From assembly GCA_016209685.1 (NCBI GenBank), contig JACQVQ010000008.1, positions 255,778 through 319,777 of the forward strand: DNA of 64,000 nucleotides, read 5' to 3'. Source of the DNA: Planctomycetota bacterium (GTDB lineage Bacteria; Planctomycetota; Brocadiia; Brocadiales; Bathyanammoxibiaceae). Below are positions 47,577 through 50,341 of this stretch, piece after piece. The notes under the pieces were generated by a model. That model worked only from the letters and a program-made list of their open reading frames with translations, had not been told where the DNA came from and searched no databases. The position numbers and the translations under genes are program-made. Every line of letters starts with the position of its first letter. Position 1 is the stretch's first letter.

Positions 47577-48029
47577 ATGCCCAGGAATTTTAGTTGGCTC
47601 CTCCCCGATGAGATAGCAGGTATGGCAAGGCCCGCCTCCGCCGTGCCAGACTTTGAGTTCCTGAGGGAATTGGGCATAGATGCCATCGTCTCGCTCACCG
47701 AATATCCCCTACAAAAGGCGTTCATAGAAGAGTTTGGCTTTGAGTATAAACACGTCCCCGTAGAAGACCTTACCGCCCCCTCCCTGGAACAGATAGACGA
47801 ATTCGTGAGGTTTGCCACAAAGGTCTGTGGAGGAGGCAAGAAACTGGTGGTCCATTGCGGGGCAGGTATAGGCAGGACGGGTACCATGCTGGCCTGCTAT
47901 CTGGTGCACAAGGGTTACTCGGCCCGGCGGGCCATTGCAGAGGTCAGACGCAAGAGGCCAGGCTCCATTGAGACCCCCGAACAGGAAGAGATAATAGCCC
48001 TATACGAGAAAAAGAAGTTGAAGGGCTAA
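47577..48029 (+). CDS. Dual-specificity protein phosphatase
   Basis: 150 aa Cys-based phosphatase resembling the DUSP23/atypical DSP group. P-loop HCGAGIGRTGT with nucleophile C94 and R100; general acid probably D64 in VPVEDLTAP. Single domain, cytoplasmic, no signal. Substrate not predictable (phosphoprotein or small molecule). The gene stands alone after the terminator; its stop overlaps the start of the duplicated ahb tail. Confidence 0.9.
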   Translation: MPRNFSWLLPDEIAGMARPASAVPDFEFLRELGIDAIVSLTEYPLQKAFIEEFGFEYKHVPVEDLTAPSLEQIDEFVRFATKVCGGGKKLVVHCGAGIGRTGTMLACYLVHKGYSARRAIAEVRRKRPGSIETPEQEEIIALYEKKKLKG

Positions 48030-48084
48030 ATCCTTGTCCCGGTCTTCTTAAACTCCTTTTCGCTATAGAGTATCACGTAATCCT
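48028..48084 (-). pseudogene. Second copy of the 3' end of the siroheme decarboxylase gene
   Basis: Minus-strand codons encode DYVILYSEKEFKKTGTRI plus stop, identical in protein to the end of the ahb gene at 48574. Over these 57 bases five positions differ (GAC/GAT, TAC/TAT, ACG/ACC, ACG/ACA, TAA/TAG) and all are synonymous. It is a gene tail without its body, separated from the intact gene by hicBA. Period between copies 548 bases. Confidence 0.88.
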
Positions 48085-48116
48085 CCCCCATCCTTCTTTA
48101 ATGGAAAAGTGCATAG

Positions 48117-48332
48117 CTATAAAGCATTAAACTCTTCTACAGTCAAACCTGCTTGACGTACAAGCTTTCTAAGGAGGCCTGGCCCTAATTCTCTGTGTTG
48201 CGGTATAGAAAGCGTGTACTCATAGTTCGGTTTTGTCATCATTACATGCGATCCCTTTTGCCTTGATACTGTCCAACCTGCCTTTTGAAGTTTCTTCACT
48301 GCCTCCTGTCCAGAGCACAGCTTAAGCGGCAT
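48117..48332 (-). CDS. hicA: HicA-family toxin (first hicBA module)
   Basis: 71 aa, small mRNA interferase with a dsRNA-binding-like fold. Typical GWTVSRQKGSHVMMTKP with the catalytic histidine in GSH, then TLSIPQHRELGPGLLRKLVR. It starts on the last base of hicB (TAATG), so antitoxin precedes toxin. The module is more AT-rich than its neighbours and is flanked by copies of the ahb 3' end. Confidence 0.9.
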   Translation of the reverse strand: MPLKLCSGQEAVKKLQKAGWTVSRQKGSHVMMTKPNYEYTLSIPQHRELGPGLLRKLVRQAGLTVEEFNAL

Positions 48333-48532
48333 TACACGATGACCTCAATCACCTTGGCTTGGTCAAAGGTATATTTTGATTCCATTACCTCTAGCCAACC
48401 CTCAATGGCCTCTTTAATATTCTCCAGGGTCTCTTCTTTTGTCTTACCCTGGGATAAGCACCCTGGCAAGGCAGGCACTTCGGCTACATAGTATCCAGCC
48501 TCATCCTTCTCAACTATCACGTGCAGTTTCAT
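48332..48532 (-). CDS. hicB: HicB-family antitoxin (first hicBA module)
   Basis: 66 aa, partial RNase H fold with MKLHVIVEKDEAGYYVAEVP, ALPGCLSQGKTKEETLENIK and IEGWLEVME. Neutralises HicA. No C-terminal DNA-binding domain is visible at this length, so any autoregulation would need another factor. 41 bases downstream of the ahb gene, same strand. Confidence 0.88.
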   Translation of the reverse strand: MKLHVIVEKDEAGYYVAEVPALPGCLSQGKTKEETLENIKEAIEGWLEVMESKYTFDQAKVIEVIV

Positions 48533-48573
48533 ATTTCTAGGTATTTACGAATGGTTACAGGGATTTGGAGAAT

Positions 48574-49065
48574 TTAAATCCTCGTCCCCGTCTTCTTAAA
48601 CTCCTTTTCGCTGTAGAGTATCACGTAGTCCTTCACACCTGTCTTCTCCTGCATCTCCTCTATAACCCTCTCACATTCCCCGTCGGCGTAGCCGTGAATC
48701 ATCGTGAATAGGTTATAAGGCCAGTCAGGGAAAGTGGGGCGTTCATAACAGTGTGTAACCTCCGGGAAGCCAGCCATAACCTTGCCCACCGCCTCTACCC
48801 TATCTGAGGGCACCCTCCAGACGCACATGGCGTTAGAGTTTATGCCTATCTTGCGGTGTGCCACGCTGGCCGCAAACCGCCTGACCTTTTTTGTCTCAAG
48901 GAGACCTTTTATACGGCTGATGACCTCCTCCTCCGTCATCCCCAGTGCCTCCCCTATCTCTTTATAGGGCCTTTCCACCAGTGGGATGCCGTCCTGTATG
49001 TGCTTCAGGAGTTTGATATCTACCTGGTCTGTCGTTTTAGAGGTCACTACCTTTTCTATATTCAT
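48574..49065 (-). CDS. ahbB: Siroheme decarboxylase subunit, AhbB-like
   Basis: 163 aa Lrp/AsnC-like protein: N-terminal helix-turn-helix (IKLLKHIQDGIPLVERPYKE, MTEEEVISRIKGLLE) and a ligand domain (CVWRVPSDRVEAVGKVMAGF, HCYERPTFPDWPYNLFTMIH). The WPYNLFTMIHG stretch is typical of the NirDLGH/Ahb group that decarboxylates siroheme to didecarboxysiroheme in the alternative heme (or heme d1) pathway. With no d1 genes visible, heme b synthesis is the likelier role. Assignment to AhbB rather than AhbA is by resemblance only. Two bases after the partner gene. Confidence 0.85.
   Translation of the reverse strand: MNIEKVVTSKTTDQVDIKLLKHIQDGIPLVERPYKEIGEALGMTEEEVISRIKGLLETKKVRRFAASVAHRKIGINSNAMCVWRVPSDRVEAVGKVMAGFPEVTHCYERPTFPDWPYNLFTMIHGYADGECERVIEEMQEKTGVKDYVILYSEKEFKKTGTRI
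48576..48632 (-). repeat. Direct repeat partner: 3' end of the ahbB-like gene
   Basis: The functional copy of the 57-base segment repeated at 48028-48084, in the same orientation. Confidence 0.85.
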
Positions 49066-49067
49066 TT

Positions 49068-49544
49068 CTATTCCCCGCTATAGATGTTAAATTTTACCCC
49101 TATCTTAAACTTCTTGGTGGTGGGGAGATTTCTTACCTCAAGGCCGGTCTTTTCCTCTATCTCTTTAATCAGCCTGACAAGTTCCTGCTTGTTAGGGGCG
49201 GACATGGTGAACCATACGTTGTAAGGTATCTCCTTGTTCTTCCCTTTTCTCAGGTAGTTATGGGAGACGCCCGTGTAGGCATTTATAGTCCTGGAGACCT
49301 CCTCAATGCGACCCTCCGGCACCCTCATGGCCATGAGGCTTGCGGTATTGCCCATCTCGTGGGTGTCTATGATGGGGCCCAGGCGGCGGAAGATGCCCTT
49401 TTCGGCCATAGCCCTTGTCCGACGGAGCACCTCACTTTCTTCCAGTCCCAGTTCCTCGGCAAGGGTCCGGAAGGGATGGGGGGTGAGGGGGAAATTAGAC
49501 TGGAGACGGTGGAGTATCTTTTTATCTTCTCTTGTTAGTTCCAT
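49068..49544 (-). CDS. ahbA: Siroheme decarboxylase subunit, AhbA-like
   Basis: 158 aa from the ATG at 49544 (MELTREDKKILHRLQSNFPL); the ORF-track TTG start at 49589 adds 15 poorly structured residues. Second Lrp/AsnC-like member: HTH (FRTLAEELGLEESEVLRRTR), then LMAMRVPEGRIEEV and YTGVSHNYLRKGKNKEIPYNVWFT. AhbA and AhbB act as a heterodimer on siroheme. Lies between the Fe-S protein and the AhbB-like gene on the same strand. AhbA/AhbB identity could be swapped. Confidence 0.82.
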   Translation of the reverse strand: MELTREDKKILHRLQSNFPLTPHPFRTLAEELGLEESEVLRRTRAMAEKGIFRRLGPIIDTHEMGNTASLMAMRVPEGRIEEVSRTINAYTGVSHNYLRKGKNKEIPYNVWFTMSAPNKQELVRLIKEIEEKTGLEVRNLPTTKKFKIGVKFNIYSGE

Positions 49545-49603
49545 ATTATAATGAAGGATTTTAGGAGGTGGCAGGGCCACTCCCGACAAAAGGGGACTGC
49601 TAT

Positions 49604-50341
49604 CTAGGTCTCACCAATGGCGTCCCTAATCTCCTGGAGCGTGGATTCCTTGACCAGGACTTCGTAGATATACCGTCCGCCCTCGCCCAGTATCTTTTCT
49701 GAGGCCATTTCCAGGGCCTTCACCACCTGTGGTTCCTGTACAAACCTCACCAGTTCCGTGGCAAATCGGGGATGTCTGCCCACCTTACCGCCCATAACTA
49801 CGGTGTGTCCCCTGGCCTTTACCTTTATAGAACCCGTGGGGCAGACCCTGGCACATTGTCCGCAATCCACGCACCGTTCGTAATGGACAATTACCGTCCT
49901 GTCAGGCTTCAGGGTTATGGTCTCTTCCCTGCAGGCCTTCAGGCACTTACGGCAGAGGGTGCATTCGGCGCCTGGGTCCACGGTCACTTGCTCCCTGGCA
50001 ATCACCCCAAAGTCCTTTATCTGGGGCATGGAACAGCTATTAGGACAGCCAGCCACGGCCATCTTAAAGGTCTGGTGGGGGAGTATCCTGCCAGGGATCT
50101 TTTCGTAAAGCCGCTGACTGAAGGAGAGTTCCTCCATCGTATCGGCCATCTGCCTGGCAATGGGCCTTGGGGCCTTGATGAGGAAGGGACATCCCACCTC
50201 CTCACCCTTGCAGGATTTTATCTGGTAGAGGACCGCCTGCCCATCCTCTCTGATGTACTTTTCGTACTTCCTGAGGATGGCCAATTTGTCCCCTTGGGGG
50301 TTCACAACGGCTAATCTCCCTGAGGCATGAGTTGCGTCCAT
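49604..50341 (-). CDS. Siroheme/4Fe-4S reductase-like protein fused to a 2x[4Fe-4S] ferredoxin
   Basis: 245 aa. The N-terminal half resembles the nitrite/sulfite reductase siroheme-4Fe-4S half-domain: CKGEEVGCPF near 44-53 and the hallmark AGCPNSC near 97-103. The C-terminal half is a bacterial ferredoxin with CTLCRKCLKAC and CVDCGQCARVCP. It is short compared with sulfite reductases (AsrC/DsrA-like), closer to small stand-alone members. Beside the siroheme decarboxylases it could supply electrons, bind siroheme, or be a sulfite/nitrite reductase itself. First gene of the ahb operon, downstream of a candidate leaderless promoter. Confidence 0.75.
   Translation of the reverse strand: MDATHASGRLAVVNPQGDKLAILRKYEKYIREDGQAVLYQIKSCKGEEVGCPFLIKAPRPIARQMADTMEELSFSQRLYEKIPGRILPHQTFKMAVAGCPNSCSMPQIKDFGVIAREQVTVDPGAECTLCRKCLKACREETITLKPDRTVIVHYERCVDCGQCARVCPTGSIKVKARGHTVVMGGKVGRHPRFATELVRFVQEPQVVKALEMASEKILGEGGRYIYEVLVKESTLQEIRDAIGET

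Follow-up and report, generated by a model that had tools for sequence, protein, structure and literature searches.

A shortened sulfite-reductase relative shares an operon with the siroheme decarboxylase genes ahbAB in Brocadiales and is a candidate helper of the alternative heme pathway

The described systems closest to the locus reported here are sulfite reductases on one side and the siroheme-dependent heme pathway on the other. Structures of the F420-dependent sulfite reductase (Fsr) define four sulfite-binding residues (Arg355, Arg423, Lys460, and Lys462 in MjFsr), with Arg388 in addition, and a cluster motif of the form CX5C...CX3C that contains the bridging Cys472 (PMC10229431). Dsr-like proteins are defined by the presence of three or all four of the sulfite-binding residues (PMC3448663). 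In the heme pathway, the siroheme decarboxylase AhbA/B of M. barkeri is 6.5-fold more active on reduction, and the oxygen sensitivity of sirohaem and its product prompted a study of tight product binding by AhbA/B; the recombinant Desulfovibrio and Methanosarcina enzymes are active without an Fe-S partner (PMC4145669). For AhbC, one electron and one proton have been proposed as a requirement for quenching the side-chain radical after each cleavage, and the clusters of NirJ, which is related to AhbC, depend on external donors (PMC12505453). In the open-access papers searched, we found no description of a sulfite-reductase-like partner of AhbAB or NirDL. The fold that we describe is already known; its use as a partner of AhbAB looks new.

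Three genes lie on the minus strand of the window, by which we mean the whole 64-kb stretch of DNA analyzed, in the order Fe-S protein gene, ahbA, ahbB. The first (49604..50341) encodes a sulfite-reductase-like Fe-S protein of 245 amino acids, recognized with Pfam and kept across the order Brocadiales. After a gap of ~59 bp comes ahbA (49068..49544), the gene for the siroheme decarboxylase alpha subunit, which scores 147.7 bits against NF040708 (cut-off 140). Its ATG start at 49544 agrees with a sister genome (L211), and a longer form starting with TTG at 49589 is possible. The gene for the beta subunit, ahbB (48574..49065), scores 202.4 bits against NF040707 (cut-off 125). AhbA and AhbB match chains A and B, respectively, of the Desulfovibrio desulfuricans enzyme (4czd_A and 4czd_B), and compared with this enzyme and with NirDL (4ch7), both are orthodox members. 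The first-pass annotation had placed a sulfite-reductase-like protein with a double 4Fe-4S ferredoxin ahead of two siroheme decarboxylase genes, and the gene order, the positions, and the decarboxylase identity, with both adjacent subunits over the cut-offs of curated models, were all confirmed.

The 245-residue protein scores 44.5 bits against the NIR_SIR domain (PF01077, cut-off 27), and a 2[4Fe-4S] ferredoxin with eight invariant cysteines, C127 to C167 (49841..49963, minus strand), is inserted within this domain, its Fer4 matches exceeding the Pfam cut-off. The protein had been described as carrying a half-domain of sulfite reductase. That description stands for PF01077 with its insert and falls short for PF03460 (NIR_SIR_ferr), which accompanies PF01077 in a normal sulfite-reductase half: Pfam detected none in the 245-residue protein or in the six relatives scanned, whereas a paralog (L002) scores 66.8 bits.

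Alignments (A1-A3) locate both halves of the siroheme/[4Fe-4S] motif on the minus strand. The first, C44-x6-C51 (50189..50212), maps to C428 and C434 of MjFsr, and its spacing is one residue longer than the canonical C-x5-C. The second, C99-x3-C103 (50033..50047), is invariant, and in the alignment to Fsr its C103 falls on the siroheme-bridging Cys472. All four cysteines are kept in every aligned relative, including the divergent forms from the Brocadiales family f4 and from genome G103 outside the order. The sulfite site has fared differently. Arg423 of Fsr is replaced by Tyr39 (50225..50227), and Tyr or Phe occupies this position in every aligned member, the f4 and G103 relatives included. 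Lys460 is replaced by Thr91 (50069..50071); across the family, this residue is mostly Thr, with Arg in Scalindua and G103 and Gln in f4. The region of Arg355 and Arg388 is missing from the family together with PF03460. Only Lys93 (50063..50065), the equivalent of Lys462, is kept of the four sulfite-binding residues, and it is invariant. Judged by its residues, the family of the 245-residue protein is probably not a working sulfite reductase.

The closest known proteins are the C-terminal half of Fsr (Fsr-C; 7np8 and 7npa) and group III Dsr-like proteins, with the best match in sequence (E = 2.7e-19) and, for the Brocadia relative, in fold (Foldseek, E = 2.6e-8). Two AlphaFold models were of low to middling confidence (mean pLDDT 54 and 68), and only their PCP_red and ferredoxin parts are trustworthy. 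Fsr-C shares with our protein the NIR_SIR domain and a 2[4Fe-4S] insert that is placed after the CX3C motif and before GGKxGR. Unlike Fsr-C and the Dsr-like proteins, the 245-residue protein lacks PF03460, has lost three of the four sulfite-binding residues, and has CX6C rather than CX5C; unlike Fsr, it has no F420H2-oxidase part and sits in an operon with ahbAB. The best NCBIfam match, sulfite reductase subunit C (AsrC, TIGR02912), reaches 68.4 bits, far under the family cut-off of 324.1.

Brocadiales also encode an assimilatory-type paralog (L002, L208, and L209), whose copy in the genome under study adjoins cysK and which is flanked by sirC and cysK in Kuenenia and in G021. The two proteins belong to one superfamily and share the ferredoxin insert and the GGKxGRHPR motif. 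In contrast to the 245-residue protein, with which it has 28% identity, the paralog possesses PF03460, retains all sulfite-binding Arg and Lys residues in the alignment to Fsr, carries a CX2C motif, and has cysteine-synthesis neighbors. In the paralogs (L002:1141-2013, L208:1606-2511, and L209:1456-2349), the CX2C motif reads ACGGCEYN; an Asn occupies the position at which CX5C would have its second cluster cysteine. A FastTree phylogeny of 193 columns placed the family of the 245-residue protein, the f4 form, and the G103 form in a single clade with a local support of 0.96; the cys paralogs, Fsr, Dsr-LP, and NirB fell outside it. The grouping with assimilatory enzymes and cys genes that the first-pass annotation had named as evidence against its proposal was therefore found for the paralog instead. 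An assimilatory sulfite reductase is ruled out as the identity of our protein, since that role fits the cysK-linked L002.

The same residues bear on the possibility that the protein is still a siroheme-dependent reductase, acting on another small substrate, such as nitrite, NO, or hydroxylamine, and neighboring ahbAB only through a shared need for siroheme. Hydrazine synthase is a mark of anammox, and its alpha domain occurs in the genome under study and in four Brocadiales families (f1, f3, f4, and f5), a setting that would suit such a substrate. All Fe-S ligands are kept as well, as is Lys93. Its counterpart in Fsr, Lys462, corresponds to the fourth sulfite-binding residue, for which full conservation among sulfite reductases and a possibly critical part in anion binding have been described (PMC3448663). 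Against this, PF03460 is lost and only one of the four anion-binding residues remains, and a separate, cysK-adjoining sulfite-reductase half retains those residues in the same genome and its relatives. We regard a surviving reductase as improbable.

The neighborhood survey that had been proposed for the fusion and the ahb genes was conducted on 59 Brocadiales genomes. AhbB is present in 49, and all 49 also encode the sulfite-reductase-like protein. In 46 of these 49, the Fe-S gene and ahbB share a contig and strand at a distance of 466-1477 bp. One exception (G037) is due to a contig end that splits the unit, with the Fe-S gene still adjoining ahbA. The two unlinked cases constitute family f4, in which ahbAB stands alone and the divergent relative is found elsewhere in the genome. 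Two genomes (G005 and G041) have the Fe-S protein at or near a contig end and no AhbB. Neither protein was found in 8 of the 59 genomes, a co-absence that is not independent evidence, because a single missing locus or assembly gap removes both genes. Three of the high-completeness assemblies (G020, G021, and G046) are without the Fe-S gene and AhbB, perhaps through an assembly gap or because of another decarboxylase; G020 and G021 retain AhbC and AhbD.

In most Brocadiaceae (18 loci), the stop codon of the Fe-S gene overlaps the start codon of ahbA as ATGA. Such an overlap usually signals coupled translation, and the Fe-S gene is apparently translationally coupled to ahbA in this family. The association is conserved over three families of Brocadiales, and chance adjacency is ruled out by this conservation (46 of 49 genomes). 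The claim that a siroheme-type Fe-S protein accompanies the AhbAB step is borne out by these data, and the recruitment of a sulfite-reductase half to the heme branch is well supported.

Beyond the order, the picture is sparse. Among 392 Planctomycetota, AhbB occurs in 29 genomes outside Brocadiales, often as a fused AhbAB, and none of the 20 non-Brocadiales ahbAB regions examined has a relative of the Fe-S protein, although several have hem, sirC, or radical SAM genes nearby. A profile of the Fe-S protein matched only two genomes outside Brocadiales in the same set, G103 and G184, both of which have AhbB; two cases are few. The G103 relative is a PCP_red-NIR_SIR-ferredoxin protein with CX6C and the Tyr; its gene is not beside ahbAB and, within L215:6925-8513, overlaps a phosphorylase-family gene (PNP_UDP_1) by ATGA. 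The G184 match is an ordinary sulfite-reductase half that groups with the cys paralogs in the tree.

A scan of 84,980 species with two peptide patterns returned, among the matches listed, full-length relatives from Brocadiales only; the other loci were mostly NirB-like frames of ~810-900 amino acids, together with three short methanogen Dsr-LP proteins. Both patterns would miss the G103 form, which was found later among the 392 Planctomycetota, so the family may be wider. The nearest of the matches listed were Planctomycetes bacterium RIFCSPHIGHO2_12_FULL_52_36, with 96% identity in the 245-residue protein, and other Brocadiales, and more distant ones came from Kuenenia, Jettenia, Brocadia, Loosdrechtia, and Scalindua. 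The genome FULL_52_36 has been assigned to Candidatus Bathyanammoxibiaceae, a deep-branching anammox family (PMC9723696). Judged by these neighbors, the genome under study would belong to that family as well.

The Brocadiaceae and Scalindua versions, as well as the G103 relative, carry an N-terminal PCP_red domain (44.9-56.8 bits in the former two, cut-off 32.5), which was found neither in the 245-residue protein nor anywhere in its family (nine genomes). Because the basal G103 relative has the domain, its loss in f1 is likely. PCP_red also occurs in the B subunit of light-independent protochlorophyllide reductase (2kru); the Brocadiaceae and Scalindua relatives share it with that subunit and have no nitrogenase-like domains. 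In Brocadiales, the domain is also fused to AhbD-like radical SAM proteins, which fits tetrapyrrole handling. Among loci L205:1317-3206, L207:925-2187, and L206:1617-2918, radical SAM/SPASM proteins that score with the AhbD model bear between one and three PCP_red domains at the C terminus; a universal stress protein has one as well. Because of this last fusion, PCP_red is not a clean tetrapyrrole marker, and we dropped it as proof of tetrapyrrole binding; its hint at tetrapyrrole handling is suggestive only.

The remaining pathway genes are scattered. AhbC is over the cut-off in 22 of 23 Brocadiales genomes; in the genome under study it scores 736.1 bits (cut-off 650) and lies on contig 6, not on the contig of ahbAB. 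All 23 genomes have an AhbD-like match, over the cut-off in only 7; the AhbD-like radical SAM gene of the present genome, on contig 11, reaches 301 bits (cut-off 500). Precorrin-2 dehydrogenase is encoded on contig 8 of this genome, and a CbiX/SirB family match was obtained in 19 of the 23 genomes and none in the present assembly. With the dehydrogenase present and CbiX/SirB matched so widely, the idea that the Fe-S protein fills a missing step of siroheme synthesis is not supported.

This context is relevant to the main rival explanation, a pure electron-transfer protein of the heme branch whose ferredoxin would supply AhbC, AhbD, or AhbAB, the sulfite-reductase fold serving as a scaffold without tetrapyrrole. 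What makes it the foremost rival is the proposed electron demand of AhbC for radical quenching and the dependence of NirJ on external donors (PMC12505453); the eight invariant ferredoxin cysteines and the activation of M. barkeri AhbA/B by reduction (PMC4145669) point the same way. A mere scaffold is nevertheless hard to square with siroheme-site cysteines that persist in all aligned relatives, even those of f4 and G103, and the operon partner AhbAB is a decarboxylase, whose chemistry runs without electrons, whereas AhbC is encoded on another contig. On balance, we consider this explanation unlikely.

The reading that we prefer, at nearly even chances, is that a catalytically retired sulfite-reductase fold acts as a siroheme-docking and redox partner of AhbAB in heme synthesis. 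The four conserved cysteines would hold a [4Fe-4S] cluster, and the bridging cysteine could ligate the siroheme iron. A site without PF03460 and with Tyr in place of Arg would no longer clamp sulfite and would be more open, so that siroheme or its decarboxylated product could be docked, shielded, and handed to the cavity of the co-translated AhbA/AhbB. The built-in 2[4Fe-4S] ferredoxin would hold the bound tetrapyrrole, or the heme bound to AhbAB, in the reduced state. Siroheme binding, contact with AhbAB, hand-over, and electron flow are inferred; a partner of this kind is plausible in view of the activation of M. barkeri AhbA/B by reduction and the oxygen sensitivity of sirohaem and its product (PMC4145669). 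Its contribution would not be essential chemistry, since no such partner lies near ahbAB in the other Planctomycetota examined and recombinant AhbA/B is active alone. The unlinked f4 relative, the overlap of the G103 relative with a phosphorylase-family gene, and the C-x6-C spacing count against the partner reading.

It is possible, if doubtful, that the protein is specifically a dedicated siroheme carrier, a dead fold that treats siroheme as cargo rather than cofactor and delivers it to the heme pathway; PCP_red would then be a tetrapyrrole-handling module both there and on the AhbD-like radical SAM proteins of anammox bacteria. Alternatively, the protein might sense siroheme or redox state and so adjust AhbAB output, and with it the shares of siroheme that go to the assimilatory enzyme and to heme. 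The overlapping genes suggest a fixed stoichiometry that would suit a sensor, and one AhbAB changes its activity with the redox state of the heme that it binds (PMC4145669). Pfam, however, detected no signaling or DNA-binding domain, PCP_red in some members aside, and the Fe-S gene is not found beside ahbAB in the other Planctomycetota examined; we judge a sensor very improbable.

Heme c proteins abound in anammox bacteria, and Brocadiales carry the genes to make heme from siroheme. A shortened sulfite-reductase relative that lacks sulfite-binding residues and shares one operon with ahbAB suggests a dedicated helper protein for the alternative heme pathway in these anammox-type bacteria. The operon offers a genetically fixed candidate both for the division of siroheme between sulfite reductase and heme and for the electron supply of the Ahb enzymes. 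If the preferred reading is true, a sulfite reductase that once used siroheme as its catalyst now handles the same molecule as a substrate. For annotation, the family is easily called a sulfite or nitrite reductase and is probably neither.

Several minor features of these loci were observed. The Fe-S gene is broken by frame changes or stops in L007, in L058, and on contig 1 of G035 near 1478860-1479533, possibly through sequencing errors. Just downstream of ahbB in the window, within 48028-48577, a HicA/HicB-like toxin-antitoxin pair lies on the minus strand at about 48117-48535, and beyond it, at about 48028-48090, the final ~60 bp of ahbB recur as a near-copy. This stretch is absent from the sister-genome locus L211 and has the appearance of an insertion accompanied by a duplicated end of ahbB. 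The sister genome has, between ahbA and ahbB, a 118-residue coiled-coil reading frame (L211:1703-2059) that starts with MNIEK, as does AhbB of the window, which hints at a deletion that fused the two.
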